Below, piece after piece: positions 4,349-57,993 of a DNA stretch of 64,000 bases. This DNA is from Methylococcales symbiont of Hymedesmia sp. n. MRB-2018 (GTDB lineage Bacteria > Pseudomonadota > Gammaproteobacteria > Methylococcales > Methylomonadaceae). The stretch lies in NCBI GenBank assembly GCA_003666385.1, contig QPIN01000063.1, positions 1 through 64,000 of the forward strand. The letters run 5' to 3'. The position numbers were made by a program, and so were the translations under genes. The notes below the pieces were generated by a model. It ran no database searches. It saw only the letters and a program-made list of their open reading frames with translations, and was not told where the DNA came from. Numbering within the stretch: the stretch's first letter is position 1; the number at the start of each line of letters is the position of its first letter.

Positions 4349-4356
4349 ATTTAGAT

Positions 4357-4680
4357 ATGGCGATCACATTAACAGAAAATGCTGCAAAGCAAATTGAAAA
4401 ACAATTACACAATAGAGGGTTTGGTATTGGCTTAAAATTAGGTATCAAGGTTTCTGGCTGCTCTGGTTATTCTTATGTACTTGATTATGCAGATGAACAA
4501 GGCGAAGATGAAATGATATTTGAGCAGTTTGGAGTCAAGGTTTTAGTAAAAGAGAATGACTTAAACAAACTGGACGGGATTGAATTGGATTATGCAAAAG
4601 AGGGCATTAATGAGTCATTTAAATTCAAAAACCCTAATGTAAAAGGTGAATGCGGCTGTGGAGAAAGTTTTTCTGTATAA
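4357..4680 (+). CDS. iscA: Iron-sulfur assembly protein IscA
   Basis: 107 residues when started at MAITL, exactly the length of E. coli IscA. A GTG at 4345 in the same frame would add four residues, but an AAGTGA stretch 8 bases before the ATG can serve as ribosome site. A-type carrier that delivers Fe-S clusters. The three ligand cysteines are present at 35 (SGCSGYSY), 99 and 101 (ECGCGESF). Last gene of the operon; it converges with the K+ channel gene, with no clear hairpin terminator between. Confidence 0.94.
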   Translation: MAITLTENAAKQIEKQLHNRGFGIGLKLGIKVSGCSGYSYVLDYADEQGEDEMIFEQFGVKVLVKENDLNKLDGIELDYAKEGINESFKFKNPNVKGECGCGESFSV

Positions 4681-4722
4681 AACGCTGTAGGCTGGAAAGC
4701 GAATTCAACCCAATAATACAAC

Positions 4723-5829
4723 TCATGCTATCTCATCCAACAGATGTTGAACCTGCTGTACTGTCATCTCTTTATCTTCATTAGCCATTATAAATAAACT
4801 ATCCGTAGTTATTCGCTCATTGGCATGAGGATTAGTATCGCACAACCCAGTCTCACTATTCATATAAGCCACCGCCGTACCATAGTCCCGTTGCATTAAT
4901 TGGCAAACAATATCTTTCCAGAATAATCCTTTAATATTGACTTCATAGCGCACATACAAATCTCCCAATGAGGACAATAAATTTTCAATAATTTGTTCTG
5001 CGCCTGGTGCTACTAGACTGCGGATTAACATTTCAGGATACGCACGCATTGGCCGTATTAGTACCTGTGCGCCCGCTTGCTTAAAACGCTGTCGATTATC
5101 ATCATCAACACATTCCGCCAATATTAAAACATCATCTGCTAAATTCAAAGTTTGTAAACGATGCAATATATCAAAAGTACGACTATCTGATTCTCTGTTA
5201 TCTTCTTGTTTTGCCAAAATAACAATATATTTTGCTTGCCTGACATTTACAGCAAGCAAGTCTTCAGTAACTGTACCACTGCCCGTGTAATGAGCCAAGC
5301 CAGGCAATGTGGCTAGTTGACTAGGTAACCCTTGAGGAAATTGCTGAGTCAAGATTTGTACGGTATTTGATTGCATTTTACTCTGTTGCAAATGCTTAAC
5401 AAAGCGTAGAAAAAACTGCTCACCTTGCTGTGAGGGGGTATTAATCACTAATATATGATTGGACATATTCCACTCCCAAAAACCCTGCATTTTTTTAACA
5501 CGAATATTGGCCCGATATTCAAAATAATCACCCGCTGCTTTCGCCAAAATAAAAATACCACATAAATAAAGCAAAACGACCGTGGCCGTTTTTCCCGATA
5601 CTGTACTTGCACTAATATCACCATAGCCAGTGGTCGATAAAGTGGTTAATGTTAACCACAAGGCATCCTGCCAGCTAAAGCCTTCAAACAGTGTCATAAA
5701 ATAAACATGTAAGGCAATAATGATCAGTAATAAAACGACTGATCTTACAAGAGCTATTTGTAACCCGTTTTCTCTAAAGGATAGTTGCGTATTTCGCCAC
5801 CAGTTGATAAAACGATAAAAGATATTCAT
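4723..5829 (-). CDS. Potassium channel protein with cytoplasmic TrkA-N (RCK) domain
   Basis: 368 residues. Two membrane segments (about 26-48 and 80-100) flank a pore helix and the K+ selectivity filter TTGYGD at 66-71. The C-terminal part is a Rossmann-like RCK domain (HILVINTPSQQGEQFF, KYIVILAKQEDNRESDSRTF). It overlaps the upstream yjfK-type gene by 4 bases, so the two are translated together. Ion channels of this type recur in clusters with YjfK, SpeE-like, SpeD and PspA-family genes, as here, suggesting a role in envelope homeostasis; the physiological role is not proven. Confidence 0.88.
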   Translation of the reverse strand: MNIFYRFINWWRNTQLSFRENGLQIALVRSVVLLLIIIALHVYFMTLFEGFSWQDALWLTLTTLSTTGYGDISASTVSGKTATVVLLYLCGIFILAKAAGDYFEYRANIRVKKMQGFWEWNMSNHILVINTPSQQGEQFFLRFVKHLQQSKMQSNTVQILTQQFPQGLPSQLATLPGLAHYTGSGTVTEDLLAVNVRQAKYIVILAKQEDNRESDSRTFDILHRLQTLNLADDVLILAECVDDDNRQRFKQAGAQVLIRPMRAYPEMLIRSLVAPGAEQIIENLLSSLGDLYVRYEVNIKGLFWKDIVCQLMQRDYGTAVAYMNSETGLCDTNPHANERITTDSLFIMANEDKEMTVQQVQHLLDEIA

Positions 5830-20123: not shown

Positions 20124-20264
20124 GAGAACTCAGCATAACTCATGAATGGATAAAAAAGGTCAGCCAAAATAACGCGCAATAGCTCACTATTACACTTGTA
20201 TTTTGACTAAAACCTGAAAAATTCTATCACTTTTTTTATCCGTCCAGAGTTATGCTGAGGTCTC
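20124..20264. mobile_element. R2 miniature inverted-repeat element (141 bp)
   Basis: About 36-base imperfect terminal inverted repeats: left GAGAACTCAGCATAACTC, right (complement) GAGACCTCAGCATAACTC, each followed by GGATAAAAAA. The element is flanked by the 5-base direct repeat AATGA (20119-20123 and 20265-20269), a target-site duplication. It is non-coding. Related copies are at 16635-16691 and, as a fragment, at 213-240. Confidence 0.8.
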
Positions 20265-37116: not shown

Positions 37117-37150
37117 GCAAAAATAATTTTGTAACTACAGAACTAAAGAC

Positions 37151-37282
37151 TAAGGGTTAAGGGTTAAGGGTTAAGGGTTAAGGGTTAAGGGTTAAGGGTT
37201 AAGGGTTAAGGGTTAAGGGTTAAGGGTTAAGGGTTAAGGGTTAAGGGTTAAGGGTTAAGGGTTAAGGGTTAAGGGTTAAGGG
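37151..37282. repeat. Telomere-like heptamer tandem array (TTAAGGG, about 19 copies)
   Basis: 132 bases of perfectly regular 7-base units (TAAGGGT register) 34 bases behind yejB, ending in GGGCGCG. No open frame uses it. It is strand-asymmetric (G-rich on +), so the + strand could form G-quadruplexes. Such arrays vary in copy number between strains. Confidence 0.95.
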
Positions 37283-37338
37283 CGCGTAGGTTGGGTTACG
37301 TGCTTTTCGTAACCCAACATTCACCTAAAAATGTTGGG

Positions 37339-42623: not shown

Positions 42624-42713
42624 CCAGAACGCCCGAACTCACTTGCCGCCAAAAGCAGAGTGTAGCGTAGCGAAACGGCACTTTTGGCGGTCAAGTGCAG
42701 TGACTTGTTATAA
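42624..42713 (-). other. attC site 1
   Basis: On the minus strand TTATAACAAGTCACTGCACTT ... CAAGTGAGTTCGGGCGTTCTGG. Inner stem of about 16 bp (CACTTGACCGCCAAAAG with one bulge). The right core GTTCTGG departs from GTTRRRY, so this last site may be inactive. Confidence 0.8.
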
Positions 42714-42954
42714 ATTGGACAGTGATTTTTTGCACTGACCTTGAAATTGTTGCTTGTGATTTGCATGGGCTTAAAGTTAACTGATATTTTATTTGAAAGC
42801 AATTAATAATATTTTCAGAGTTACTATTATTTTATTTTTTAGACGCACTTGATGATTTAAAGAGCCTCTTTTTTCAGACTGCTTTACTGCTTAAGTGGCA
42901 TTTTTGTTAAAAGAAACAGCATACTTTGATGCTTAACTTTTAAAGCCTGTGTAT
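42714..42954. other. ORF-less integron cassette
   Basis: About 240 bases between attC1 and attC2 with no plausible gene on either strand. ORF-less cassettes are known in chromosomal integrons; they may carry promoters or small RNAs. The + strand contains several A/T-rich hexamers but no clear promoter pair. Confidence 0.55.
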
Positions 42955-43044
42955 TTATAACGTCGCAAATAACTGGGCGTTAAAAGCGTTGCGCGTTTTT
43001 GGCGCAACGCTTTTAATATTCCATGTTGATTTGCCTTGTTATGT
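42955..43044 (-). other. attC site 2
   Basis: On the minus strand ACATAACAAGGCAAATCAAC ... CCAGTTATTTGCGACGTTATAA. Inner perfect 15-bp stem TTAAAAGCGTTGCGC with a 7-base loop. It closes the toxin-antitoxin cassette. Confidence 0.85.
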
Positions 43045-43100
43045 TTGGTTGTTTATACTAACGACTTAATTAAAGACCACTTTATAGTACTGGTGATAGC

Positions 43101-43349
43101 ATGACAACTAGAATATTGACTGAAGCAGCAGCAAGCATAAGCGAATTAAAAGAAAACCCAATGAAAGTTGCTTTGAGTGCGCATGGTGAGGCAATTGCTG
43201 TTTTAAATAGAAATGAACCAGCATTTTATTGCATACCAGCAGATACATATGAATTTATGATGGCTCACATGGAAGATCTAGAGCTATTAGCTATTGCTGA
43301 GCAGCGAAAAAATGAAGCTAGCGTAAAGGTTAGCTTAAATGACTTATGA
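43101..43349 (+). CDS. Phd/YefM (RelB-like) antitoxin
   Basis: 82 residues. MTTRILTEAAASISELKENPMKVALSAHGEAIAVLNRNEPAFYCIP is the typical Phd/YefM (StbD-type) DNA-binding fold; the C-terminal helix (EDLELLAIAEQRKNEASVKVSL) wraps the toxin. Overlaps the toxin gene by 11 bases. It is on the plus strand, against the cassette direction, so it must use its own promoter between 43045 and 43100. Toxin-antitoxin cassettes like this stabilise large integron arrays. Confidence 0.88.
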   Translation: MTTRILTEAAASISELKENPMKVALSAHGEAIAVLNRNEPAFYCIPADTYEFMMAHMEDLELLAIAEQRKNEASVKVSLNDL

Positions 43350-43626
43350 GTTAAAGTTTAAAAAAACAGCTCTTAAAGAGTGGAAAAAGTTAGGTGCCAC
43401 TATTCAATCTCAATTCAAGAAAAAACTCGAAGATATTTTAGAAAATCCACACGTAGAAAGCGCTAAATTATCTGGTGGCAATAAACTTTACAAAATTAAA
43501 CTTAGGCAAGTAGGCTACAGGCTAGTTTATGAAGTGAATGATTCTATTATTACCGTCATGGTTATTTCTGTTGGAAAACGCGATAAAGGAAAAGTATATA
43601 AAATAGCAATGGAGAGAATAAGCTAG
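43339..43626 (+). CDS. RelE/ParE-superfamily toxin
   Basis: 95 residues with the RelE layout: YELKFKKTALKEWKKLG, LSGGNKLYKIKLRQVGYRLVYEV, and the last strand VMVISVGKRDKGKVYK. The Lys and Arg residues of the RelE mRNA-cleavage site (in KIKLRQVGYRL and GKRDK) are kept, so it should be an active ribosome-dependent endoribonuclease. The stop at 43626 is 4 bases before attC3. Confidence 0.9.
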   Translation: MTYELKFKKTALKEWKKLGATIQSQFKKKLEDILENPHVESAKLSGGNKLYKIKLRQVGYRLVYEVNDSIITVMVISVGKRDKGKVYKIAMERIS

Positions 43627-43630
43627 AGAA

Positions 43631-43687
43631 ACATAACGCTTGAGTTCACCTGACGCGTAAGCGGTCAGGTGCAACGATTTGTTATAC
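43631..43687 (-). other. attC site 3
   Basis: On the minus strand GTATAACAAATCGTTGCACC ... GTGAACTCAAGCGTTATGT, very near the layout of the classic aadA attC (TAACAATTCGTTCAAGCC ... TTAACTCAAGCGTTAGAT). Stem CACCTGAC/GTCAGGTG. The hsdR stop codon TAA (43682-43684) lies inside the R'' box. Confidence 0.92.
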
Positions 43688-46600
43688 ATTTGCATTAACG
43701 CCAGCTTCCAATATTTCTTTTACAGCACCAAACATCATTGCCGAAAAGTCTTCTCTAAATTCCTTATTGTCTGAATACAGTTTATATATGCCAAAATTTG
43801 AATTTATATGTTTTAATAGCTCGTCTCCTACAATCCCATCACTTGTTATGCGAGCGTTTTGCTCATCAGAATGACTTATTGAGCTAATTAATTTTTTATT
43901 TTTTGCGACATCATTTGCAATGCTTTCAACCATTTGTCTCACCTTATCCACATCTTCAAATTCAGTTCCGTATTGGTCGTTGAAAGTTTGTAAAATGCTT
44001 GAAAGTCTGTCGATTTCAGGGTCATTTACTCCGCCTCTCATTTCTGTTGGAATTGGTTGTAAATCATCGCCTTGTTCCATTGCTATATTGGTTATTGCTT
44101 CCAATTGCAAACGGTAACTATCCATATTAATATTTTCTAAAATATCAATAGGTATTTCTATATCATCATTACCCAGTTTGTTTTGCAAATGATTTAAGAA
44201 AATATAAAGTCGTTCTAAATAGGCATTTTCAAAGGCCACAATTTGAGATAAGAAAATATACAAACGAACATAAGTTTTTACTTTGGCTCTAAAATCGGCT
44301 TGCTGTTCTTCTTCTAAATCATTTCTGAAAACTGCACTTGCTTCGTCTAAAATTGCGTGTAATTGCTCAACTGGCACATTTTCTAAAATCTTATCCGAAA
44401 ATTCTTCAACTTGCTCACAAGAATAAACCTGATAATTATCTAAAGCATCTTGTAAATCAAATAGTTTATTTGGGTCGGTTGCCTCACCTAAAATGCTGCT
44501 TTCAAAATAGGGTGTAAAGGCTTTTTCAATATCCTCTGAAGTGTTGGCAAAATCCAAAACAAAAGTGTCTTGTTTTAGTGGATGACTTCTATTTAAACGA
44601 GATAAAGTCTGAACAGCATTTACACCACCCAATTTTTTATCAACATACATTGTATGTAACAAAGGTTGGTCAAAGCCTGTTTGATATTTGTTTGCTACCA
44701 ATAAGAATTTATACTCATCTTTTTCAAATTCTTCGGGAATATTTCCGCTTGGAAAATGATTTAAACTGCTTTCTGTTTCTCCTTCAATCTCTCCTGAAAA
44801 AGCAACAATTGCTTTGTAAGGATTATTTATTGAAGTCAAATATTTATCAAAAGCGTGTTTGTACTGAACGGCTTTTTTACGACTGCTCGTTACCATCATC
44901 GCTTTTGCTTTTCCACCAATCTTTCTTTTTTGCACCACATTTTCCATAAAATGGTCAATCATTAATTTTGATTTCTTTTTTATGGCGTGTTCGTGTCCCT
45001 CTACAAAGGCTTTTAATTTTTTCTGTGCTTTTTTCTTGTCGTAATCGGGGTCGTCTTCTATCTTTTTAAGCAAAGCATAAAAACTTTGATAAGTGGTGTA
45101 ATTAAGCAATACATCTTTTATAAATCCTTCTTCAATGGCTTGTTTCATCGAATACAAATGAAATGCCCTGTATTTGTTTTTTCCATCTTGTTCAAATGGC
45201 ACTCCAAATAATTCTAAAGTTTTATTTTTTGGTGTGGCTGTGAAAGCAAAATAACTGGCATTTGGCAAAAGTTTACGGGATTTTACAAGGGCTCGTATTA
45301 AATCTTCGCCTGTTACTTTGTCATTTTCGTTTTCATTGTAATTTTCTAAATTGCTTTGCAACTCTTTTTCATCTTTTACTTTAGATAAGGTTTCGTTGAG
45401 TTTACGCGCCATTTGCCCGCTCAAACTACTGTGTGCTTCATCTATAATAACGCCAAAATTAGCACCTGGTAAATCTCCAATTTTCTCAACAATATATGGG
45501 AATTTTTGAATAGTGGTGATGATAATTTTCTTACCATCTTCTAAGGCTGATTGCAGTTGTTGAGCGTCTTCAGTAATGGCTTGAACAACACCTTTTACTT
45601 GTTGGTATTGCTTTATATTCTCTCGTATTTGCTTATCTAAAATTCTACGGTCAGTAATTACAATGATAGTATCAAAAATTGTTTCATTTCCCTGTTTATT
45701 GTGCAGACCTACCAATTGATGAGCCAACCAAGATATGGAATTACTTTTGCCCGAACCTGCTGAATGTTGAATTAAATATTTTTGTCCTGCTCCGTTTTCT
45801 TGTGCATCTGCCAATATTTTACGAACAGATGACAGTTGGTGGTAGCGTGGGAAAATGAGTTTTTTCTCTTTCTTTATTCGTTTTTTGCCTTTGCTGTTTT
45901 TAACCGTTTTTTCCTCGGTTATTAGTTGGGCGTAGTTTTGTAGAATATTGGTTAAACTATCTCTTGTTAGAATTTCTTTCCATAAATAATCAGTTTTAAT
46001 ACCGTCATTTAGCGGATTTCCTGCTCCATTGTTGTTGCCTTTATTAAATGGTAAGAAAAACGACTTATCGCCTTTGAGTTGCGTACACATCCACACTTCT
46101 TCGGTATCTACAGCAAAGTTTACCAACAATCTACCCAATCTAAAAAGTTCCTCGTTAGGATCTCTGTCGGTTTTGTATTGCTTAATGGCATGGCTTACAT
46201 TTTGTTTGGTAAGTTGGTTTTTAAGTTCAAAACTGATGATGGGCAAACCATTGATAAAATTGACAATATCTAAAGATTTGTTATTTTTTGTAGAATAAGA
46301 AACCTGACGCATAACCGAGAATATATTGGCTTGGTAGAAATCATTATTTTGTGTATTGTAATGAGAAACAGGTTTATCATAAAACAAACGCAACTTAGTA
46401 TCTGTAAAACCATCGGTTACACCTTTACGCAACACTTCAATAATGCCCTTTTGTTTTATTTGGTCGTTTATGCGTTTTAGTATTTTTTGCTTATATAAAT
46501 CTTGATGATAGCGTTTTAGTTTTTCAACCGCGTTGGGTTGGGTACTTTCTAAAAACTGAAATAGCAAATCAGCATCGACACAATTTACATTATCGTAATC

Positions 46601-46696
46601 TTGCCAAGTACGCAATACATAGCCATTTTCAGAAACTAAATAATCTGTAATATGCTGTTCGAAGCCGTTCTCTTTTGTATTGGTAGTTTTGCTCAT
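43682..46696 (-). CDS. hsdR: Type I restriction enzyme R subunit HsdR
   Basis: 1004 residues. N-terminal PD-(D/E)XK nuclease with Asp143 and Glu157-x-Lys159 (PIISFELKNQ), then a two-lobed SF2 translocase: Walker A HSAGSGKS (311-318), DEAH box at 419-422 (VIIDEAHSSLSG), motif III FAFTATPKNKT, motif VI VQTLSRLNRSHP. It cuts unmethylated DNA after translocation. Begins 2 bases after hsdS and ends inside attC3. Intact; no frameshift seen. The protein looks close to Bacteroidetes-type HsdR, suggesting transfer. Confidence 0.95.
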   Translation of the reverse strand: MSKTTNTKENGFEQHITDYLVSENGYVLRTWQDYDNVNCVDADLLFQFLESTQPNAVEKLKRYHQDLYKQKILKRINDQIKQKGIIEVLRKGVTDGFTDTKLRLFYDKPVSHYNTQNNDFYQANIFSVMRQVSYSTKNNKSLDIVNFINGLPIISFELKNQLTKQNVSHAIKQYKTDRDPNEELFRLGRLLVNFAVDTEEVWMCTQLKGDKSFFLPFNKGNNNGAGNPLNDGIKTDYLWKEILTRDSLTNILQNYAQLITEEKTVKNSKGKKRIKKEKKLIFPRYHQLSSVRKILADAQENGAGQKYLIQHSAGSGKSNSISWLAHQLVGLHNKQGNETIFDTIIVITDRRILDKQIRENIKQYQQVKGVVQAITEDAQQLQSALEDGKKIIITTIQKFPYIVEKIGDLPGANFGVIIDEAHSSLSGQMARKLNETLSKVKDEKELQSNLENYNENENDKVTGEDLIRALVKSRKLLPNASYFAFTATPKNKTLELFGVPFEQDGKNKYRAFHLYSMKQAIEEGFIKDVLLNYTTYQSFYALLKKIEDDPDYDKKKAQKKLKAFVEGHEHAIKKKSKLMIDHFMENVVQKRKIGGKAKAMMVTSSRKKAVQYKHAFDKYLTSINNPYKAIVAFSGEIEGETESSLNHFPSGNIPEEFEKDEYKFLLVANKYQTGFDQPLLHTMYVDKKLGGVNAVQTLSRLNRSHPLKQDTFVLDFANTSEDIEKAFTPYFESSILGEATDPNKLFDLQDALDNYQVYSCEQVEEFSDKILENVPVEQLHAILDEASAVFRNDLEEEQQADFRAKVKTYVRLYIFLSQIVAFENAYLERLYIFLNHLQNKLGNDDIEIPIDILENINMDSYRLQLEAITNIAMEQGDDLQPIPTEMRGGVNDPEIDRLSSILQTFNDQYGTEFEDVDKVRQMVESIANDVAKNKKLISSISHSDEQNARITSDGIVGDELLKHINSNFGIYKLYSDNKEFREDFSAMMFGAVKEILEAGVNANV

Positions 46697-46698
46697 TG

Positions 46699-48042
46699 CT
46701 AATTCTCGTTATTATAACTTACAGTTGCTTCTGCCACCATTGCCAAAGGTGTTTGGGTTTGCGGAATTTCAAAATCTCTAACATCTATTTTGCCTGTTAC
46801 CGCTTCGGCTATTAAGGCGGTTTTGTATTCTTCTACTAAGGTTATTTCTTTTGCTATGGTTGTTATTGTTTTACTGATTTTGGTGGTTTCAGTTTCGATG
46901 TGAAGGGCTATTTGTTTTTGTTCACCTAAAGTTGGGCTTAGGCATTTTAAATTTATTAATTTGTCTTTAGTTAAATGCGCAATACTTACACGATTAACGA
47001 TACTTTCAAATCCACCCTTATGACCATAAATAAAAAACAAGTAAAGAAAGTATTTTGAAATTCCATCATTATTTATAGTGACCTTATGTGCAGAATTTTG
47101 AATGTAGCATTCCTCTATTTGGTTTTCCCAAAAACAAGTTTTTCCGACTTCCCCACCTTCGCTAAGAACTAAATCACCTGCTTTTAACCTATAGATTTCC
47201 ATTTCTTTTTCAGAAAACCACATTTCTTCAACATCAGTTACATCAGCATTTAACCATTGAATATTTTTTGATTTTAAATAAGGTTTTTTGAAGTAATTTC
47301 CTTTGTCTTCGTTGCAAAGCATTTTCCCAAGAACAACATTAGCAATGTACTTCAAAGGCTTAACCTCCCAACTCTCAGGAATGTCACCCAGCCACTCAAT
47401 ACCGCTTGGTTCCATTTTGGCATTTGGGTTTAAGCCTTTGGTAACGGTTTGGTTTATTATGGCTGCTTTTTGCTCGTTTAGTAGTTTTATCAGTTGCCTT
47501 TTCTTGCTAATAAAACGGTCTATCTTTTCGAGTTTGTAATCAAGAAAATTGGCTATGGCGGTTTGTTCGGGTTTGGGTGCAGATGGAATTATCATATTCT
47601 TCATCTCAGAGTATTTTGTTGTCCACAAGTCTTCAACTATTCCTCTGCCGTATCTATAATATTCTTCTTTGAAGTAATACGATTTCAATAAATATTCAGA
47701 ATATCTTGGTTCAATACTCACAGGTTTCAAGATGATATAAATTAAAGAAACAGAACCATCATAAATTGAAACCCCACTTGACCCTTTTCTATCAGAACGA
47801 CTATTTATAGCAAAATCACCCTTGAGGACAAGTTTTCTGTTGTCTCCATCATTAGATTTTGCAGCATTTGCTAATTGTGGAAGAACACCGTTTTTCGTAA
47901 CAGAGAGTGGCGGATAATCAGTATCTGAAACTTTTTCTTTTCTTTGATTGAATAAACTACCAAGCCCAACTTCTTCCCACTCCTCAGGAATCTCCCCCAA
48001 CCAAGCAACACCACTATTTTTATATTTCGGATATTTATTCAT
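46699..48042 (-). CDS. hsdS: Type I restriction specificity subunit HsdS
   Basis: 447 residues with two target recognition domains. First half: NKYPKYKNSGVAWLGEIPEEWEEVGLGSLF to ANFLDYKLEKIDRFISKKRQLI (coiled-coil spacer); second half: SGIEWLGDIPESWEVKPLKYIA to IALHIETETTKISKTITTIAKEI. The duplicated GVAWLGEIPEEW / GIEWLGDIPESW motif shows the internal symmetry. It sets the split DNA target of the HsdMSR complex; the target cannot be read from sequence alone. Overlaps the rhuM gene by 8 bases. Confidence 0.94.
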   Translation of the reverse strand: MNKYPKYKNSGVAWLGEIPEEWEEVGLGSLFNQRKEKVSDTDYPPLSVTKNGVLPQLANAAKSNDGDNRKLVLKGDFAINSRSDRKGSSGVSIYDGSVSLIYIILKPVSIEPRYSEYLLKSYYFKEEYYRYGRGIVEDLWTTKYSEMKNMIIPSAPKPEQTAIANFLDYKLEKIDRFISKKRQLIKLLNEQKAAIINQTVTKGLNPNAKMEPSGIEWLGDIPESWEVKPLKYIANVVLGKMLCNEDKGNYFKKPYLKSKNIQWLNADVTDVEEMWFSEKEMEIYRLKAGDLVLSEGGEVGKTCFWENQIEECYIQNSAHKVTINNDGISKYFLYLFFIYGHKGGFESIVNRVSIAHLTKDKLINLKCLSPTLGEQKQIALHIETETTKISKTITTIAKEITLVEEYKTALIAEAVTGKIDVRDFEIPQTQTPLAMVAEATVSYNNEN

Positions 48043-49051
48043 TGCTTTGGTTTTTAATTTTATTCTCTAAACTTTTCAAGTCTTCTAAATCCTGCTTATC
48101 TGCTTGTAACGCATTGTGTTTTTTTCTGTTACTGTCGTATTCTTTATAAATAGCATGTACTTGTTTTTGCATCTGGGTATTGGTTATTTTACCTTTATGG
48201 TTTAGTATTTTTTTATTGTGAAAATCTAACAATTTATCTACATTTTCTGTCCAAAACAGCATAGTTATGTCTATTCTTGCTTTTATTCTAAGTTCGGCAC
48301 TTTCCAAAAATATAACCACTAATCGGTTTAGGGTGTCTATTTCATCTGCTGTTAAGTAGTTTTTGGCAATAAAAATATCTTGTTTTCTTACTACAGCACC
48401 TTTCCAGTTGGTTAATGCCATATTGGGTTGATTTGGCTTGGCTCTTGCTACTACTAATTCGGCTGCTGTTTGGCTTGTCGTAGCATACAAGAGTTTATTT
48501 TGCGTTTCGGCAAAAAACATTTGTGTTGCTTTGTCGGTGTTGTCGTAATCGCTACTGAGTGCAAATAAATCTCTTACTTTTTGGTAAAAGCGTTTTTCAG
48601 AAGCGCGTATATCTCTAATGCGTTCTAAAAACTCATCAAAATAATCTGGTCTTCCTTCTGGATTTTTTAGACGCTGATCGTCCATTACAAAACCTTTTAG
48701 CAAATATTCTTTAAGGTGATTATTTGCCCAAACTCTAAATTGCGTTCCTCTTTTGCTACGCACTCTAAAACCAATGGCTAAAACCATATCTAAAGCGTAA
48801 AAAGTTACTTTGTATTGTTTGCTATCTGTGGCAGTTGTTAAGTAATCCTTAATAACTGAATTTTCAATTAACTCTTTGTCTTTCAGTATGTTAGATACAT
48901 GCATACTTATATTAGGTATAGAGGTGTCAAAAAGTATTGCCAATTGATTTTGGTTCATCCAGATATCGCCATCTTTAGCAAAAAGCGATACAGAGGCTTT
49001 GCCATCTGCACTGTTGTAAATTATTATATTTTGTTGGTTGTTGTCCATCAA
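48035..49051 (-). CDS. rhuM: RhuM-family protein inside the hsd operon
   Basis: 338 residues. N-terminal part IIIYNSADGKASVSLFAKDGDIWMNQNQLAILFDTS and VTFYALDMVLAIGFRVRSKRGTQFRVWAN is the signature of 'virulence protein RhuM' (BRO/KilA-like DNA-binding plus helical C-terminus). Such genes are often found within hsd operons between hsdM and hsdS, but their role is unknown; they may regulate or modulate restriction. ATGA overlap with hsdM and overlap with hsdS show it is part of the operon. Confidence 0.9.
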   Translation of the reverse strand: MMDNNQQNIIIYNSADGKASVSLFAKDGDIWMNQNQLAILFDTSIPNISMHVSNILKDKELIENSVIKDYLTTATDSKQYKVTFYALDMVLAIGFRVRSKRGTQFRVWANNHLKEYLLKGFVMDDQRLKNPEGRPDYFDEFLERIRDIRASEKRFYQKVRDLFALSSDYDNTDKATQMFFAETQNKLLYATTSQTAAELVVARAKPNQPNMALTNWKGAVVRKQDIFIAKNYLTADEIDTLNRLVVIFLESAELRIKARIDITMLFWTENVDKLLDFHNKKILNHKGKITNTQMQKQVHAIYKEYDSNRKKHNALQADKQDLEDLKSLENKIKNQSNE

Positions 49052-50856
49052 TCAACAATTTCTTTTAGCAAGTTTTCTGTTTCATTTTCTAAATCTAAAA
49101 TATCTGCTTTAATATCACTTAATGAACGCAAAGCGTCATATTTATAAAAATATTTGTTGAAAGCAATTTCATAACCTACTTTGATTTTCTTTTTATCGTA
49201 CCAAGCATCAGGCGCAAAGGGTGATACTTCACGAGCAAAATATTTATCAATATCTTCTTTCATTGGCACATTTTCTGTGTCTTTTAAAGCTTTATCTGGT
49301 TTTGAATTGCCTTTTTTGTCAAGAATTATTTTGCCGTTTTCATCTTTTTCGGGCTGATGCGTGGTTATTTGATAAAATCCAAAATCATCATTATCAAATA
49401 TTTTAGAGTGCTCGTTTTCTTCAAAATCAAAATATAGATTTTGAATATTTAAAATGTGGTTAGTGTTTAATTGGTTTCTTTTGCTACCCAAAGCCTTTCG
49501 CATTTTGCTATAAAAAACATCGGAAGAAGCATTAATCAACTGCACTTTGCCTTTTCGTTTTGCTTCTTTGTTGTTGCTGATAATCCAAACATAGGTTGCA
49601 ATACCAGTATTGTAAAACATATCGTTTGGCAGTTGGATAATGCACTCCAATAAATCATTTTCTAATATATATTGTCTTATTCCACTTTCGCCACTGCCTG
49701 CATCGCCTGTAAACAAGGCAGAACCATTTTGAACAGAAGCAATACGGCTACCTCCGTCTTTAGGGTCTTTCATTTTAGAGAGCATATGTAGCATAAACAT
49801 TAATTGTCCATCGTTGCTACGAGAGGTTAAACAAGTTTTTTCTGTTTCGCCTTTAAAGTTTTTTATCGCCAAGTTAAAACGGCTGTCGTTTATTTCAATC
49901 TTTTTGGCTGTGCCTAGATTTAACTCTTTTTGATCTTCTTTCCAACTTGTGCCGTAAGGTGGGTTGGTAAGCATAAAGTTAAATTTTAGGTTAGGGTTGA
50001 AGCCGTATTTACTAAGCGTAGAGCCAAACTTTATTTTGTCGGGGTCTTCGCCTTTTAGTAGCATATCCGATTTACAAACCGCATACATTTCGCCTGTGTT
50101 TTCTTGTCCGTATAAATGAAAACTTGCTTTTGATTTTATTTCGCCCTGAGGGTCGGTGGCATATTTTTTAGATTGGGTAAGCATCGCTCCTGAACCTGCA
50201 CAAGGGTCGTAAACTAAATATGTTCCTTTTTGTATTTTGTCTTTTATAGGCAAATACACCAAATGGGTCATTAGTTCTATAATTTCTCTTGGCGTAAAGT
50301 GCCGTCCTGCTGCTGCATTGGTTTTTTCGTTAAATCTGCGGATTAAGTCCTCAAACATATAGCCCATTGCCATTGGTGAGATTTTCTCTGGTCGTAACTC
50401 CACTTTTGGGCTACAAAATTTTTCAATTAGTGAAAAAGTAATGCCTGTTGTTTCAAAGGTTTCTAACTGGTTACGAAACTTAAATTTTTGAATTATGTCT
50501 TGTACATTTTCTGAAAATCCGTTGAGATAGTCCAACAAGTTGCTATCTATGTTTTTCGGGTCGTCCAGCAACTTTTTCATTGTGTAGGGCGAAGTGTTGT
50601 AAAACTCCAATCCCGAGCCGTGTTCTTTACTTGTTAATAGCCCTGATAGATTATCAATTTTTCCTTTATACGCTTCGTGGGTTTTTAAAACCTTGTCTTT
50701 CGTTGTTTCTAAAGCCAAATCCAATCTTCTCAAAACGGTCATTGGTAAAATCACATCTTGATATTGGTTTTCAAGGTATTTATTAATCAGCACATCATCT
50801 GCAACTGTCCAGATAAAGTTGATAATCGGTTGTAATGTATTTGTATCTAAACTCAT
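49048..50856 (-). CDS. hsdM: Type I restriction modification subunit HsdM
   Basis: 602 residues. N-terminal HsdM_N helical domain, then a gamma-class N6-adenine methyltransferase: motif I VYDPCAGSGAM (DPCAGSG 217-223), motif IV NPPYG (298-302), the region HFTPREIIELMTHLVYLP. It methylates adenine in the HsdS target and protects host DNA. First gene of the operon hsdM-rhuM-hsdS-hsdR. Start about 25 bases behind the next attC (50917-51025), so its promoter would lie in or beyond the attC, or be supplied by the upstream cassette. Confidence 0.95.
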   Translation of the reverse strand: MSLDTNTLQPIINFIWTVADDVLINKYLENQYQDVILPMTVLRRLDLALETTKDKVLKTHEAYKGKIDNLSGLLTSKEHGSGLEFYNTSPYTMKKLLDDPKNIDSNLLDYLNGFSENVQDIIQKFKFRNQLETFETTGITFSLIEKFCSPKVELRPEKISPMAMGYMFEDLIRRFNEKTNAAAGRHFTPREIIELMTHLVYLPIKDKIQKGTYLVYDPCAGSGAMLTQSKKYATDPQGEIKSKASFHLYGQENTGEMYAVCKSDMLLKGEDPDKIKFGSTLSKYGFNPNLKFNFMLTNPPYGTSWKEDQKELNLGTAKKIEINDSRFNLAIKNFKGETEKTCLTSRSNDGQLMFMLHMLSKMKDPKDGGSRIASVQNGSALFTGDAGSGESGIRQYILENDLLECIIQLPNDMFYNTGIATYVWIISNNKEAKRKGKVQLINASSDVFYSKMRKALGSKRNQLNTNHILNIQNLYFDFEENEHSKIFDNDDFGFYQITTHQPEKDENGKIILDKKGNSKPDKALKDTENVPMKEDIDKYFAREVSPFAPDAWYDKKKIKVGYEIAFNKYFYKYDALRSLSDIKADILDLENETENLLKEIVD

Positions 50857-50916
50857 TTATTTTCTTTATTCCTTATTCGGTTTTTAATTCTGTGAGTATT
50901 GGTATGCGATTTTTTT

Positions 50917-51025
50917 GTATAACGCCTTCATAACCAGCGAAAAAAACTGTGTTTGGGTGTGATATTATGCGAAGCATCACACCCAAACACAGTTTTTTGC
51001 GTCTGAGTTAATGAACTTGTTAGAT
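50917..51025 (-). other. attC site 4 (long VCR-like form)
   Basis: On the minus strand ATCTAACAAGTTCATTAACT ... GCTGGTTATGAAGGCGTTATAC. The inner stem is a perfect 23-bp inverted repeat (50941-50963 with 50976-50998) and a 12-base loop, 109 bases overall. It closes the YaaC-like cassette, whose stop is 7 bases away. Confidence 0.92.
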
Positions 51026-51031
51026 GATTTA

Positions 51032-52552
51032 TCATACCTGAGCAAACAGTGACCCTGGTTGAGTAACGTGAATCTCTTTTGAGAGCAAGCCTTCAAAAAA
51101 CTCTTGAGGTGCAATACGCTCATAAACATCCAAAAATTCTTCTATCAGTACTAAGTAATTTTCATGTTTTCCTGAAACAACTTCTCTCCAAATACTGGGT
51201 CTATAGCGAACTAATATAGATAAAGAATAAAGCAATGCTAGACATATTGCCTTATATTCACCTACTGACCCGAATGCAGGGATAATGAAAGTAGAGCCTG
51301 CATATGGACTCCGGTGCTGCTTAATTACTTCGTGCCAATATTCGTCGTTAGGATGATTTACTAGTGCTTTAAAATTAAGACCAGGGTATTCAGATGCTTG
51401 ATATTCGATTTGGTCTAAAGGTAACGATAACGCTACTATATCTTCTTTTGATTTTGAGCATGAAATATCATTGATAGTGACATAAGTCTCTCTCAGTCTT
51501 ACGTTATTAAACGCAAAGCTACCATTCGCTTCTGAATCATGATTGAAAGTTAACCAATTTACCGGAGTGTCCGTAACTAGCAGGAATAAGTCTTCTAACT
51601 CGGGTATTCTCGAGAATAACTCAATAAGTGTTGTAACTTCGTTTTTTGATAGATCAATATCTGATGCTTTTTTTGGCTTCTTAGCTGGAAAAAGCGATAC
51701 GTCAGCTCCTAAGAATTCCGCCCACTTTTTGAAAAAACCGTTTGATAATACACCTACTACAAAACCTTCAAAAGAATTATCATCAATTGAATCAAATGTA
51801 TAAAGACCATGTCCAAACTTTGTCATGCTCTCCACTTCAGCAAGCGACTTTGAGCCATCAGGTGATGCAAGCATTTCTGCTGATGCAAAGGCTATTGCTC
51901 CGTAATATAGGCTTACTATTCGCTGATTCAACTTTTGTTCGTTAGCAGCTTGAAAGTAATCACATCCATTTTGAATACAAAAAGCTAAACCTTCAGCTTT
52001 AGACTGAATGACATCATTAGAGTATGAAAGACCTTTTAAAGTATATCGTTCAATAACTAACTTCTTCGAAAGGCCTTTGGTTCTAAACTGCCTGATCCTA
52101 CTCCATATTTGCTTAATTGGATTCTCTGATTGGATATAACTCGTGAATTCCTTTGCTTTTATCCTTGGTTTTTCTGGCCCTCCAGAAGATATTTTTCCAT
52201 CAGAAATCAAAGAGTTCCATTTGATCAAATAAGACTGAATGCTAGATTTTTCGATAATTTCTGTTTTGATGCCGTAGGCATATGATTCTAGATGATAAAA
52301 CTCACTATCTAGAACTATTAAGTCAACAGTTTGATCTAGTACCTTATATATGCCATTTGCTGTAGCACAGGTATACAAAAACCCGATTTTAAATTCGGCA
52401 TAAGATTTTTTCAATTTAATTACAATGTACTCACCATTAGGAAACTTTCCATCAATAAAGCATTCCCAGTTGTGTTTTTCAAAAGGCACAATAATATCGC
52501 GTTTCGCGCTAGCCTCTAAAATCTCTAATCTAGTTCCATTTACTGAATCCAT
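51032..52552 (-). CDS. YaaC-like protein of unknown function
   Basis: 506 residues. The C-terminal two thirds resemble the YaaC family: a Y-Y-G-A-I-A-F-A-S-A-E helix (about 216-226), GHGLYTFDS, a loop GFFKKWAEFLG, and the final RYRPSIWREVVSG ... FLDVYERIAPQEFFEGL. The N-terminal about 130 residues form a mixed alpha/beta domain (VDLIVLDSEFYHLESYAYGIKTE) that I cannot name. No membrane segment. Full cassette bounded by attC5 and attC4. Its place among restriction and Avs cassettes suggests antiviral function, but that is inference. Confidence 0.6.
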   Translation of the reverse strand: MDSVNGTRLEILEASAKRDIIVPFEKHNWECFIDGKFPNGEYIVIKLKKSYAEFKIGFLYTCATANGIYKVLDQTVDLIVLDSEFYHLESYAYGIKTEIIEKSSIQSYLIKWNSLISDGKISSGGPEKPRIKAKEFTSYIQSENPIKQIWSRIRQFRTKGLSKKLVIERYTLKGLSYSNDVIQSKAEGLAFCIQNGCDYFQAANEQKLNQRIVSLYYGAIAFASAEMLASPDGSKSLAEVESMTKFGHGLYTFDSIDDNSFEGFVVGVLSNGFFKKWAEFLGADVSLFPAKKPKKASDIDLSKNEVTTLIELFSRIPELEDLFLLVTDTPVNWLTFNHDSEANGSFAFNNVRLRETYVTINDISCSKSKEDIVALSLPLDQIEYQASEYPGLNFKALVNHPNDEYWHEVIKQHRSPYAGSTFIIPAFGSVGEYKAICLALLYSLSILVRYRPSIWREVVSGKHENYLVLIEEFLDVYERIAPQEFFEGLLSKEIHVTQPGSLFAQV

Positions 52553-52575
52553 GGATTCTCTAATTCTCTATTTTC

Positions 52576-52647
52576 ATCTAACGACCAAGCTCACTGGCGG
52601 CTATGGAGCGCAGCGGAATAGCCGTCCAGTGCAGCGCCTTGTTATGC
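52576..52647 (-). other. attC site 5
   Basis: On the minus strand GCATAACAAGGCGCTGCACT ... CCAGTGAGCTTGGTCGTTAGAT. Stem CACTGG-CGGCTAT with a one-base bulge typical of attC extrahelical bases. It begins 6 bases after the stop of the Avs-like gene. Confidence 0.95.
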
Positions 52648-52652
52648 GTTTT

Positions 52653-55600
52653 TCATACGATACTTTCCCTTAGCATGTATCCAACAACAGAGCCATTTTC
52701 AATTAAATAATCTAATATTAAGAGTAAGCTGTCTTTTGTGGCTTTTGTTCTTTTGATTTTTTCACGATTTCTAAAAATGTATTTTCTAGTAAGATTTTCT
52801 AAATAGTAAATGGTGTTAGTTTCGAGTTTCTTATCGGCTAAATCTCGATTATTTCTTAGAATACTTGAGAGCCAGAGAACACCATCATCTATATATTGGC
52901 TTCCAATGTCATTTAATAATTTTGAAACAGCATATATAGCAGAAGGACAGTGGCCAATGTTCTCTGAAACTTCTTTAAAAAATCTTTTATTATTATCTTT
53001 TAGTGAATTCCACTCTTTAGCTGATTCTTTCCATGGCACTGTGGCGAAAAGATAACTTTTGACTATTTTAGCCACATACCAACGCTCATCACCTTCCTTA
53101 CAAATGTCAAATATTTTTCTTTTAAAAGTATTCCAAACCAACCAAAAATTATCATATGTATTTAAAGCATCCTCTGCCAAAACAAATTCATGCAATAAAT
53201 CAGCAATAGATTCAGATGTATTAAAATTATCAACAAATGGTTTTAAATAATCTTGAATGTCGTCTTTAGGTGAGTTCAACACAAAGTAAGTATAGTTTTG
53301 TAAAAAATCATGTTTAACCTGATAATCAATCTTGTCTTCCCTATCATCTAAAACCAGTTTTTTAGCAAAGCTAGAAATCACTGCTTTAGCAATCGCCTTA
53401 TGGTCATTGTTATCTGTTTTTTGAGGAATCATCTGAAATGCTGTTCTTAGAATTGACAGATCATGTTCTTCAATATCTTTCAAATTAGACAATGTGAGTT
53501 TGTTGTCAATAACAAGTTGTAATACTTCATCATTATCCTCAATAAATCTTTTTAACAATTGATCATCATATGACTCATAAACTTTTTTCTTGTAATTCTC
53601 TTCTCGGATTATCCTTCCTAACTCATCATATTTTGGTCTTAGCAACAAATACCCAAGCAATAAAGAATGAGCATCATTAAAATTATTTTTCCATAATTTC
53701 TGGATAGCTATGATTGGAAAAATGCTAAAACTTTTGCTTGAAAGCATACCACCTACATGGGAATCTTTGAAAAGGCTTAGTAGTAGAATTATTTTTATAT
53801 GTTCTTTTTCATCTGGAAAAACTTCAAGTAGGGCAGGAAGTACAGAAATTGCTTGCTGCACCCCATCAGATATTTGATATTGGTAGTTAGTATTTAGAGA
53901 CGAGGCTGCAACTTCTAAAATTATATTTTTGCAAAAGGATTTGTCCTCTACAGAGAGATCATCAAAGTTGTTTTTAACCAAAACAGAACAAACATATGCA
54001 GGAATTGAATGATTAAACAGAAAAAATGTTTCTTCTTCTGAATGTTGTAAAGTTAAGGAATTAGGTCGCTCAACTTTACTCAACGTCTCTAAAATTTCCC
54101 TTACCTCTTTCAAAGCAAGTTTTGGTTCATCCTCATACTTCTCATATTGTTTATATTTCACATCTTTATTGAATTTATAATCAGCCCATAATTTCAACGA
54201 TGTATATTTCATAAACTCGGTACTTGCCGCTACTGATTTCTCTCTATACTTTTTTAAACTAGGATCAATTTCAGGATTGAACTGAATGGCAATACCTTCA
54301 TCAGTTTTTTCGGTTGTTATATTCATCTTCCTTCTATCCATTCTGGCAAGAAAGAGCCTCCACGTTTTATCAGATTCAGATTGTTCTGCTTCTATAGGTA
54401 ATTCTCTATAATAATCATCTAATATTTCCCATAATATTGCTTGTCTTTTTTCTGCTTCCTTCTCATCAACCCCTTCGCTCCTAAAAAGTTGATAGTTAAG
54501 GAAAAGGTGTTCTAAACTAAGTTTTCGATGTTTATCTTCACAAGTTTTTATTCTTTCTTCATCATAGAATTCATTCGTTCTAATACCCCAGCTCTTTCCA
54601 ATTGAATATAAAGATTCAGCACCGTGCTCAGAAACTAATCTGGATGTATCATTTAGAATAAACTCTTTGGTTTTAAATAGAATTTTAGCCACATTAAATG
54701 TTTTTTCTGGATAAGCTAGAACAATACTAGTGACAACTGATGATATTGAGGCAGATTCAGAATTTTTAAGAAGATAAATAAGCCAATCTTCTATAATTTT
54801 AGGCTCGAATATTTTTCCAATTTCTAAAAAATATTTTTCCAAGGCCATGTGAATAGATTGGAGTAAGTAGGGACTTACAGGAGAGCCTGTCCCACGATAT
54901 AAATTCCATAGGCAATGACTTACATATTGGCTTTTCTTGTTTTCATCATCTAAAAATATGTCAATATTTTGTACAAAATTATCAAAGTCAGAGCTTGCAT
55001 ACTTCTGTACTGATTTATTAGTAAAATTGAGAATAAAATCAATTGTTCCTTTGAGATGAAACTTTAGTAACCAATAAATTGGGGTTTGATAAGCACTTGC
55101 GGGGTGATAATCAGAATGGTTGGATTCCAAACCAAAATGTTGTTCTATTTCTATGCGTGTATGAAAAAATGAATGGTCATCTTTTCTCGTATAAGACCAA
55201 AATAAATCAGCTAATTTTAAAACATATTCAGGAAGAACTTTAAAAATTGAAATCCCTTCCATCTTTGTTAAAATAATTTTTGATAGCTCATAATATGGGT
55301 CTCTGTGATTTTTCCATTTATTGTTTAGAATCTCATCAAAAATTTCTTTCAATTCATCTTTAATTTCAGATGAGCCATAAAGAATAGTTTGCAGAAGGTG
55401 CTCTTTAGTATCATCACGATAAACATATACATCTTCGCCGATAATCCATTGATAATATTGCAATGCAATCAGACTTGAAAGCCTTGTGGTTTCACCTTCT
55501 TTAATTTTACTATTCCAATCGTGGATTATCGGCAAAATAAAATTGATATTTTTAATGCCAATTGATTCTATATTATCATAAGCAAATTTTATAAGATTCT

Positions 55601-57392
55601 CCCATCCTTGGCCTTTGGGTTTTGTTAAGATGTACTTCAGGGAAAATAAATTCAGGTTTTTAATACCCAACTGCCTGAAGAAATCATCATCAACTTCCTT
55701 GCAAGCAATTCTTAATATAAAAGTAAGTTTTCTTAATAAGTTTTGTTCATCAGATAACAGTTCGTCTTTAAAAAGGTCAAAAAATACTTTTGAATAATTT
55801 GAGAGTAAAACAGAAACTAATATCTCATCTTTCCAAAACGGTTCAATTTCTGTGCTCTCAACCATTTCTTCAATAAAATTTTTGATGTCATCATTTTCTA
55901 ATAAAAGTTTTTCTGATAGCCAGTTCCTAAAACTTCTGCGAATAGGAAGTGATTGTCCTATTTTCTTAAAAAAATCCTGATTTACCATTTTTTTTAGAAA
56001 TTCACTCTCAATAATTTTCTCTAATGCCCATTCCTCATAAATATCATGCGTAATAAAATATCCGGCTACTTCATAACCTAAAATTCCATCTCCAACTAAT
56101 TCATTATCCAAAATATTCGAATCACAACTTGGGCTAATAAAAAATTGCCCTATATTCGCTCTCTCAAATGCTATTTGTAAAAAACACCGTTCCCGTTCAG
56201 GTTTGGATTTTTTTATATTTTTATTCCACAATTTATTTTTAAATCCACTGTACTCTAACTCTTCTTTGTCTTTATAAAACTTCAGGTATTCGTTTAGATA
56301 GAATGGATTTCTTATTAACTCCAGTAGCTTTTCGTCTTTGGGCAATAAAAATGAGTGTTCCTCTGAAATCTTACTGAGTTCTTTCAACTCTAAATTATTG
56401 ATGCTTATATTTAATGGAGCAATATTGTAGATTTCAAAAAATTGATAGTTTAAGTCCTCTAAATAATTATCTCTTGTCGTAAAAATAATTTTCCATTCAT
56501 CATTAATAAGAATTGATAAAAACTCTTTAAAAGGGTCATAGTTATTTAGACCCAGTAATTTTTCAGAAGAATCAATTACAACTATTTTATTTTTTTCATC
56601 TTTATGAACTTCAGTAAAATCGTAAAAACTAAAATCCGCATATAAATCGTTTATATTTTTTAGTTCAAATTCAGTTGCTTTGAATACAACAAAAGGCGCT
56701 TCATCTTTTAATTGTTCATATAGTTTTTTAATAAGTACCGTTTTCCCGACTCCGCCAATGCCACTTAATATCGAAATTTGTTGTGGTGCATCTTTTAATT
56801 CTTCAAGTTGCTTATTTCTGTTGATTTCAAAATTTTGATTATTGAAGGAGATACTTGTTTGCATTTGGCTTAAAATATTTTCAGTGTGCTTTTGCTGTTC
56901 TTCCATTAAAACAAAAATGCTTTTTTCTGATGTAAAAAAATGTTTGGCAAAAACTTCATTTTTAGTGGAAACAAATTCAGACTCAAAAAAACTAGCAGTT
57001 CTCCATCCCAATATAATATTTAGCTCTTTTGCTTTTTCTTCAACTTCTATCAATCCTTGTGGCTTCTTGCCCTTGTTTTGCCCCCATTCTTGGTTAGTAT
57101 AGAAAAGTATTTTTGTGATTTTAGGATAATCTCTTTTTGCTTTTTTAATAGTTTTTACTAAGTCATCCTTATGATTTGAAAGTGATGTGCCATAGAATTT
57201 AGCTTGCCAACCTATCACTTCATTATCTTTGTCGATTGGATTAGTTTCGATTGCAGATTGATTTTTAAAGCGAAAAATACCGAATGACCTGCCAAACTCT
57301 TTACAAAACAGCAAATAACAAAACCACTCAAAATCAGATTGAGGGTTTTCACAAAACTTTGCTTTAAATATTTCCCAGTTCGGTTTGATCAT
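52653..57392 (-). CDS. Avs-like STAND NTPase with N-terminal PD-(D/E)XK nuclease
   Basis: 1579 residues. N-terminal nuclease domain (FEWFCYLLFCKEFG, acidic residue in AIETNP, and IGWQAKF with Gln63-x-Lys65, the Mrr/Cap4-like core), then a STAND NTPase: Walker A GIGGVGKT (211-218), Walker B KIVVIDSSE (269-277), sensor arginine TTRDN (about 307). The rest is a long helical-repeat sensor region (about 420-1579) without known catalytic motifs. Order and size best fit the Avs antiviral NTPases, especially Avs4; assignment to a subtype is by impression. The whole gene is one cassette (attC6 to attC5). Confidence 0.72.
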   Translation of the reverse strand: MIKPNWEIFKAKFCENPQSDFEWFCYLLFCKEFGRSFGIFRFKNQSAIETNPIDKDNEVIGWQAKFYGTSLSNHKDDLVKTIKKAKRDYPKITKILFYTNQEWGQNKGKKPQGLIEVEEKAKELNIILGWRTASFFESEFVSTKNEVFAKHFFTSEKSIFVLMEEQQKHTENILSQMQTSISFNNQNFEINRNKQLEELKDAPQQISILSGIGGVGKTVLIKKLYEQLKDEAPFVVFKATEFELKNINDLYADFSFYDFTEVHKDEKNKIVVIDSSEKLLGLNNYDPFKEFLSILINDEWKIIFTTRDNYLEDLNYQFFEIYNIAPLNISINNLELKELSKISEEHSFLLPKDEKLLELIRNPFYLNEYLKFYKDKEELEYSGFKNKLWNKNIKKSKPERERCFLQIAFERANIGQFFISPSCDSNILDNELVGDGILGYEVAGYFITHDIYEEWALEKIIESEFLKKMVNQDFFKKIGQSLPIRRSFRNWLSEKLLLENDDIKNFIEEMVESTEIEPFWKDEILVSVLLSNYSKVFFDLFKDELLSDEQNLLRKLTFILRIACKEVDDDFFRQLGIKNLNLFSLKYILTKPKGQGWENLIKFAYDNIESIGIKNINFILPIIHDWNSKIKEGETTRLSSLIALQYYQWIIGEDVYVYRDDTKEHLLQTILYGSSEIKDELKEIFDEILNNKWKNHRDPYYELSKIILTKMEGISIFKVLPEYVLKLADLFWSYTRKDDHSFFHTRIEIEQHFGLESNHSDYHPASAYQTPIYWLLKFHLKGTIDFILNFTNKSVQKYASSDFDNFVQNIDIFLDDENKKSQYVSHCLWNLYRGTGSPVSPYLLQSIHMALEKYFLEIGKIFEPKIIEDWLIYLLKNSESASISSVVTSIVLAYPEKTFNVAKILFKTKEFILNDTSRLVSEHGAESLYSIGKSWGIRTNEFYDEERIKTCEDKHRKLSLEHLFLNYQLFRSEGVDEKEAEKRQAILWEILDDYYRELPIEAEQSESDKTWRLFLARMDRRKMNITTEKTDEGIAIQFNPEIDPSLKKYREKSVAASTEFMKYTSLKLWADYKFNKDVKYKQYEKYEDEPKLALKEVREILETLSKVERPNSLTLQHSEEETFFLFNHSIPAYVCSVLVKNNFDDLSVEDKSFCKNIILEVAASSLNTNYQYQISDGVQQAISVLPALLEVFPDEKEHIKIILLLSLFKDSHVGGMLSSKSFSIFPIIAIQKLWKNNFNDAHSLLLGYLLLRPKYDELGRIIREENYKKKVYESYDDQLLKRFIEDNDEVLQLVIDNKLTLSNLKDIEEHDLSILRTAFQMIPQKTDNNDHKAIAKAVISSFAKKLVLDDREDKIDYQVKHDFLQNYTYFVLNSPKDDIQDYLKPFVDNFNTSESIADLLHEFVLAEDALNTYDNFWLVWNTFKRKIFDICKEGDERWYVAKIVKSYLFATVPWKESAKEWNSLKDNNKRFFKEVSENIGHCPSAIYAVSKLLNDIGSQYIDDGVLWLSSILRNNRDLADKKLETNTIYYLENLTRKYIFRNREKIKRTKATKDSLLLILDYLIENGSVVGYMLRESIV

Positions 57393-57434
57393 TTAGTAAT
57401 CCAATCTCAATAGTTTCTGCACGTTCCTTCTTAC

Positions 57435-57494
57435 ACATAACACCTTTCTTCAGCGGCCCAGCTCCGCTGGGTCTGCTGCAAGAATTTGTTAGTT
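57435..57494 (-). other. attC site 6
   Basis: On the minus strand AACTAACAAATTCTTGCAGC ... GCTGAAGAAAGGTGTTATGT. Stem AGCAGACCCAG/CTGGGCCGCT with bulges. It lies 33 bases behind the stop of the small membrane protein and 43 bases before the Avs-like start. Confidence 0.9.
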
Positions 57495-57526
57495 GCCCAA
57501 TGCACTTTCAATTCCGATTAGACTGG

Positions 57527-57967
57527 CTAAGAGAAAATGCTTTCGATAATCGTGGTACATTCTCCACTACTCGTGCACATCTCACCGAGTAGTAACGCGT
57601 ATGCGCACAATGAACAGATTACAAAACCGATGAATCCAAGTCTGCTCTTTAATCGACCTCGCGCTATCCCCCATTCCTCGTAAATGACGTCAACGCTCGC
57701 ACGAAAGTCTTCTTTCGAGATTCCCTTCGGGGTCGACGGTGAAAAATTGAGAAAAATCGCGATCAAAGTCGCAGTTATTACAAGACTAGGGTCCCAAGCT
57801 AGGGCATATGCAAGTACCATATTTGCGACGCCGAGGGCAGCTATAGTCAAAATCCACGCCACTGGCCGTCTAGCCAATACAAAGATAAAGTTGTAGGTTT
57901 GCCGGTATAGTACGTTGAGTACAATTGTGTATATGGCAATTTTTGCGATAAGCCATAAGGTGCTCAT
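57527..57967 (-). CDS. Small four-helix membrane protein (integron cassette gene)
   Basis: 146 residues, about four membrane helices (LIAKIAIYTIVLNVLY, AWILTIAALGVANMVLAYALA, LVITATLIAIFLNFS, LGFIGFVICSLCAYALLLGEM) with a hydrophilic loop at about 78-107. I recognise no family. The G+C content is visibly higher than in all neighbours (Arg codons CGC/CGA, many GCG and GTC), so it was acquired separately. The start is 20 bases inside the cassette boundary GTTAGCC, as usual for cassette genes. Confidence 0.75.
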   Translation of the reverse strand: MSTLWLIAKIAIYTIVLNVLYRQTYNFIFVLARRPVAWILTIAALGVANMVLAYALAWDPSLVITATLIAIFLNFSPSTPKGISKEDFRASVDVIYEEWGIARGRLKSRLGFIGFVICSLCAYALLLGEMCTSSGECTTIIESIFS

Positions 57968-57986
57968 GTTCTCGATCTCCGATGGC

Positions 57987-57993
57987 GGCTAAC
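57987..57993 (-). other. Cassette boundary core GTTAGCC (array head)
   Basis: Minus-strand GTTAGCC fits the GTTRRRY recombination core. No attC-type dyad is seen on its upstream side (57994-58060), so it could be the junction with an attI-like site or with a decayed attC. The 200 bases to res hold no other gene; they are A/T-rich and carry no recognisable integrase. Confidence 0.5.

Follow-up and report, generated by a model that had tools for sequence, protein, structure and literature searches.

Two attC sites in the genome of a Methylococcales symbiont of Hymedesmia lie 4.86 kb apart with one very large gene between them, and it was asked what this gene encodes and whether it reached its place as a single integron cassette. 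The locus lies in a window of 64,000 nucleotides, the whole stretch of DNA analysed. An earlier note on this window, made from the letters alone, had proposed an Avs-like STAND defence gene of 1579 aa, carried as one cassette at 52582-57441.

The Avs4 gene and its cassette boundaries

As shown in Table 1, the coding sequence lies on the minus strand, and its 1579 codons run from ATG to TGA without an internal stop. The NCBIfam equivalog NF041815.1 "AVAST type 4" matched residues 5-1579 of the protein with 2166.7 bits, against a cut-off of 1500 bits, and the PADLOC Avs4 profile gave 2377 bits with positions 1-1570 of 1570 covered. EcAvs4 (8DGF), the only relative by sequence among solved structures, aligned with 1824 bits (1-1578 to 1-1586). 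No match to Avs1-3 or Avs5 was found in NCBIfam, PADLOC or the solved structures, where only Avs4 profiles and 8DGF scored. Avs4 was the only family to fit, and the Avs-like assignment of the earlier note was sharpened to type 4. Judged by its sequence, the 1579-aa protein is Avs4, an ordinary member of a known family; the sequence match to a solved structure was decisive for this assignment.

Conservation of the motifs was counted in 80 Avs4 homologues from genome contigs. The nuclease core predicted at residues 49-65 was present: E49 and K65 were invariant in all 75 homologues with that region, and Q63 was kept in 70 of these 75. Together with the lysine and aspartate of the Walker motifs (Table 1), this agreed with the earlier choice of Lys65 and Lys217 as residues to mutate. 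The STAND NTPase is represented by an nSTAND3-like region at residues 204-346, which Pfam PF20720 matched with E 1.8e-5, below its gathering score. The long C-terminal region aligned to EcAvs4 over its full length without large losses, and the proposed order of nuclease, STAND NTPase and long sensor was indeed that of EcAvs4.

Table 1 Coordinates of the Avs4 gene, its motifs, the attC array and the island (window positions)
Feature	Position	Strand	Remark
Island	41867-64562		last 562 bases in L014
First cassette	57441-57992	-	146-aa ORF 57527-57967; 5' boundary GTTAGCC 57987-57993 tentative
attC of cassette upstream of Avs4	57435-57494	-	R2 34.3 bits, E 9e-6
Avs4 integron cassette	52582-57440	-	4859 bp, between G^TT crossover points of two attC
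Leader, crossover point to start codon	57393-57440	-	48 nt
avs4 coding sequence	52653-57392	-	1579 aa
Mrr/PD-(D/E)xK-like nuclease motif E49...Q63-A-K65	codons 49-65, 57198-57248	-	residue conservation
Walker A GIGGVGK(T), K217	codons 211-217, 56742-56762	-	K217 in 80/80 homologues
Walker B aspartate (VIDS), D274	codon 274, 56571-56573	-	D274 in 78/80 homologues
Long C-terminal region, putative sensor by analogy with Avs4	residues ~460-1579, 52653-56015	-	boundary approximate; 8DGF alignment
attC of Avs4 cassette	52576-52647	-	R2 45.4 bits, E 1.5e-8
Cassette after Avs4, YaaC-like protein	50923-52581	-	506 aa, 51032-52552; PF14175 E 9.6e-27; R'/R'' 7/7
attC	50917-51025	-	R2
Type I restriction-modification cassette	43637-50922	-	7286 bp; R'/R'' 7/7; no internal attC
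attC	43631-43687	-	R2
Phd/YefM-ParE toxin-antitoxin cassette	42961-43636	.	genes on + at 43101-43626; R'/R'' 7/7
attC	42955-43044	-	R2
Last cassette, without recognised gene	42630-42960	-	331 bp; R'/R'' 7/7
attC, last of array	42624-42713	-	R2

Next to the gene, both ends expected of a cassette were found. The upstream attC ends, on the minus strand, in the R' box GTTATGT, which is the start of the Avs4 cassette, and the cassette's own attC lies at the 3' end, 5 nt from the stop codon. The claim of a single cassette between two attC sites thus held, and the proposed coordinates were correct to within one base. Judged from these boundaries, the Avs4 gene most probably came to this site as a single integron gene cassette.

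The attC array, its controls and its genomic setting

The attC sites were located with a covariance model (R2) trained on 18 attC from other contigs of the same genome, none of them from the window. In the surrounding 104 kb, R2 detected six attC, every one of them on the minus strand (E between 5e-16 and 9e-6), and elsewhere gave a single weak sub-match, on the opposite strand and overlapping one of the six. A relaxed scan had come first and a model R1 (13 sites, partly the window's own) had preceded R2, and the same six sites were obtained; R2's 18 training sites were first found with R1, which leaves the models independent in training and not in the initial picking of sites. Base-pair covariation in the attC stems was well above shuffled and slid controls in both model alignments, and the chance level of the hairpin scan was about 0.7 hits per dinucleotide-shuffled window.

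Because the two ends of a cassette derive from a single attC of the former circle, the 5' R' box of each of the five cassettes flanked by attC on either side was compared with its reverse-complemented 3' R'' box. Agreement was seen at 19 of 20 variable positions. When array neighbours were paired as a control, agreement was 10/24; of 120 pairings, 2 did as well as the own-cassette one. The self-match was 7/7 in four neighbouring cassettes and 6/7 in the Avs4 cassette, whose boxes are GTTATGT and GCATAAC.

Simpler searches behaved differently. An Rfam search gave no attC family in window positions 32-64 kb, and the strict expression RYYYAAC/GTTRRRY recovered none of the six attC, since its pattern does not fit several boxes. 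With about 15 hits per shuffled window, a loose hairpin scan was uninformative, so covariance models were used instead; an alignment of seven attC from outside the window came out misaligned and was replaced by the 18 sites from other contigs.

No integrase match was present on the 216-kb contig (C11) that carries the array, and the array is not headed by intI and attI as a complete integron would be. On this ground the six-attC array is classed as a CALIN, a cluster of attC sites lacking integrase. The apparently membrane-spanning 146-aa ORF of its first cassette had no Pfam, NCBIfam or PADLOC match. The YaaC-like protein adjoining Avs4 is a candidate defence gene by position. The type I restriction-modification cassette, next-but-one to the Avs4 cassette, holds four genes (HsdM, RhuM-family, HsdS and HsdR), with the stop codon of HsdR falling within the attC. 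This 7.29-kb unit bears on the earlier remark that large single-gene cassettes such as that of Avs4 are rare: the size of 4.86 kb stood, and the word "rare" needs care, because another cassette in the same array exceeds the Avs4 cassette in size. The Phd/YefM-ParE pair runs opposite to the remainder of the array.

The host genome (2.2 Mb, 63 contigs, 99% complete) has at least 93 attC, belonging to a large chromosomal integron split over many contigs; integron contigs include C18, C20, C43, C44, C46, C49, C50, C51 and others (L136, L137, L108). Successive attC in the dense arrays on C18 and C20 are separated by 376-3225 bp, with a median of 957 bp. C44 carries an integron integrase gene, which is intact and scored 389 bits (cut-off 265 bits). 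At least 62 attC were counted in G001, a second genome of the genus.

The array is part of an island of 22.7 kb that has an S4-domain gene on one side and prfC on the other, and that also contains toxin-antitoxin genes and a type III restriction-modification system. In G001, the closest relative examined, 0.86 kb stands in place of the island between flanks that are 94-95% identical. The island was probably acquired, because it is absent at this site in G001 and full-length Avs4 is absent in eight other genomes of the genus examined. The nearest Avs4 homologues were in Halanaerobium, Saprospiraceae, Chlorobiota and Sulfurospirillaceae genomes, and this distribution, together with the absence in the genus, fits a horizontal acquisition.

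Several other elements of the region were also recorded. A similar type III system with the same inserted AAA ATPase lies on another G001 contig (C48, L155). Truncation of the type III Mod gene at the edge of the window was suspected and then rejected, since the frame is open and runs past the edge. Two 135-nt repeat copies were considered as marks of array insertion and were likewise rejected: each is a copy or relic of a CopG-like antitoxin gene, and one of them lies within the type III operon and is present there in G001 too. Hairpin repeats of 123 to 141 nt occur between genes (20133, 20460, 34668), with 123-nt elements at 20133-20255 and in L014. An intergenic tandem run of the heptamer GGGTTAA occupies 37150-37283, and similar simple repeats recur between genes.

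Avs4 beside attC in other bacteria

R2 was also applied to 1.49 Mb around 80 Avs4 genes, and attC was found beside Avs4 in 6 of these 80 other loci, with no R2 match more than about 0.6 kb from an end of Avs4. These loci belong to Oceanospirillum (L038), Marinicella (L058), Acinetobacter (L057 and L091), the cyanobacterium Geitlerinema (L075) and a Paludibacteraceae MAG (L095). Sites on both sides of the gene were present only in the window and L095, and the other loci had attC on one side. In L095 a second attC-like hairpin follows the stop, and its R'' box GCCCAAC pairs with the 5' R' box GTTGGGC at 7/7; this Bacteroidota case is less sure, because MAG contigs may be misbinned. Both Acinetobacter loci have a single attC 35 nt past the stop, and their leader opens with a canonical GTTAGGC, the pattern expected if one cassette had been inserted alone.

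The six attC-bearing loci are spread over at least four branches of the Avs4 tree. With the window included, the tree requires six label changes, at least five of which are forced by well-supported branches, and it therefore seems that Avs4 entered cassettes several times, or left them repeatedly.

Further candidates were noted among the homologous loci. Hairpins resembling attC, with GTTRGC boxes and missed by the proteobacterial models, occur in L103 (485-552, 5321-5380 and 6922-6988) and in the flanks of L099 and L102; in several Bacteroidota such hairpins bracket Avs4 and a neighbouring ORF, and they are possibly a different cassette-like repeat. In L016, an E. coli plasmid Avs4 that is 44% identical, the leader (start at 2953-3001) keeps a canonical attC-like R' box, GCGTTAGGC, which is common to marine relatives and hints at a cassette origin. 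L070 (flanks of 278-4926) has a frameshifted Avs4 with GTTAGGCGAC upstream and GTCGCCTAAC directly after the gene; its contig is binned as Pacearchaeota, and it may be a degraded cassette in an archaeal bin. An extended scan for R'/R'' words (at least 7 nt, starting GTT) at all Avs4 loci was set aside: it left the window and most attC-bearing loci unflagged and flagged mainly AT-rich words, along with a small number of real candidates (L070, L095 and L103).

Proposed function, alternatives and known systems

The characterised trigger of Avs4 is the portal protein rather than the terminase. Avs1-4 as a group are STAND receptors, nucleases triggered by terminase or portal proteins (PMC12931631). 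We consider it highly probable that the window encodes Avs4, an NLR-like (STAND) immune receptor, captured and placed as one integron gene cassette. As in the family, its C-terminal sensor would bind the phage portal protein during infection, ATP-dependent oligomerisation would follow, and the N-terminal Mrr-like nuclease would then cleave phage and host DNA, thereby aborting the infection. An integron integrase would have brought the cassette to the island.

It is very improbable that Avs4 is not a true cassette, having landed between attC-like hairpins by transposition or homologous recombination, or that the hairpins are unrelated repeats. An integrase-free array is indeed an imperfect setting, and the genome has other hairpin repeat families, such as the 123-nt elements mentioned above. 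However, a model independent in its training found only six sites in a single orientation, four neighbouring cassettes matched themselves completely at R' and R'', the leader is short (48 nt) and the stop codon lies only 5 nt from attC, and Avs4 adjoins attC in other taxa.

The cassette may also be genuine and dormant, stored unexpressed in an integrase-free satellite array and giving no defence unless moved beside a promoter, which we regard as somewhat unlikely. Neither a Pc promoter nor an integrase was found near the array, and promoter-like sites in the region were at chance level (29 found against 31.3 ± 6.0 expected), so expression of Avs4 at this locus may be weak or absent; silence is presumed for integron cassettes at a distance from the promoter (PMC12409362). 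On the other side, the 4.7-kb frame is fully open with conserved motifs, and some integron defence genes of V. parahaemolyticus are expressed from their native locus, as relayed in that review. Nor do we favour a receptor of Avs4 type that senses something other than portal protein, a clearly minor prospect. Identity to the E. coli Avs4 proteins is about one half, so the ligand may differ, and for at least one other Avs the trigger is a molecule outside the terminase and portal proteins (PMC12931631). Yet the sensor aligned with EcAvs4 throughout, and the score lies far above the equivalog cut-off.

Integrons have reportedly been described in 2025 as reservoirs of phage defence. Both Avs4 and integron-borne defence are known, and Avs4 as a recurrent integron cassette was not found described in the open literature searched; that search, outside which the primary Science and Nature Microbiology papers lie, gave no paper joining integron cassettes and AVAST. 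The interesting part is the large-cassette setting, its recurrence in unrelated bacteria and a probable blind spot of surveys. In surveys, attC are grouped when less than 4 kb lies between them (PMC9668308), and this would hide both large cassettes of the window, since 4.86 kb and 7.29 kb exceed the limit. We suggest tentatively, as a proposal that may well prove wrong, that integrons routinely mobilise full-size NLR-like receptors and multi-gene restriction systems as single 5-7 kb cassettes across phyla, and that the small size reported for integron defence genes is partly an artefact of the 4-kb rule. If large immune genes do travel in this way, integrons would carry receptor-type immunity from one phylum to another, and small genes may be overrepresented in published counts of integron defence systems, since attC spaced wider than 4 kb are left ungrouped.

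Compared with known systems, the window array is like other CALINs in its six attC, single orientation and lack of an integrase gene on the contig, and differs in that two attC-to-attC distances exceed the usual grouping limit, so that standard settings would split it. With the anti-phage cassettes of the V. cholerae and V. parahaemolyticus chromosomal integrons and of mobile integrons it shares a defence gene between attC sites (PMC12409362). Integron defence systems are described there as streamlined and small, with systems of more than two genes absent, whereas the window holds the 4.86-kb Avs4 cassette and a four-gene type I restriction-modification cassette. The protein itself resembles EcAvs4 (8DGF) in its full-length alignment, its order of nuclease, STAND and long sensor, and its conserved E49, Q63xK65, K217 and D274; it differs in its identity of about 52-54% to the copies on E. 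coli plasmids, and in being encoded in an integron cassette of a methanotroph-related (Methylococcaceae-like) bacterium.
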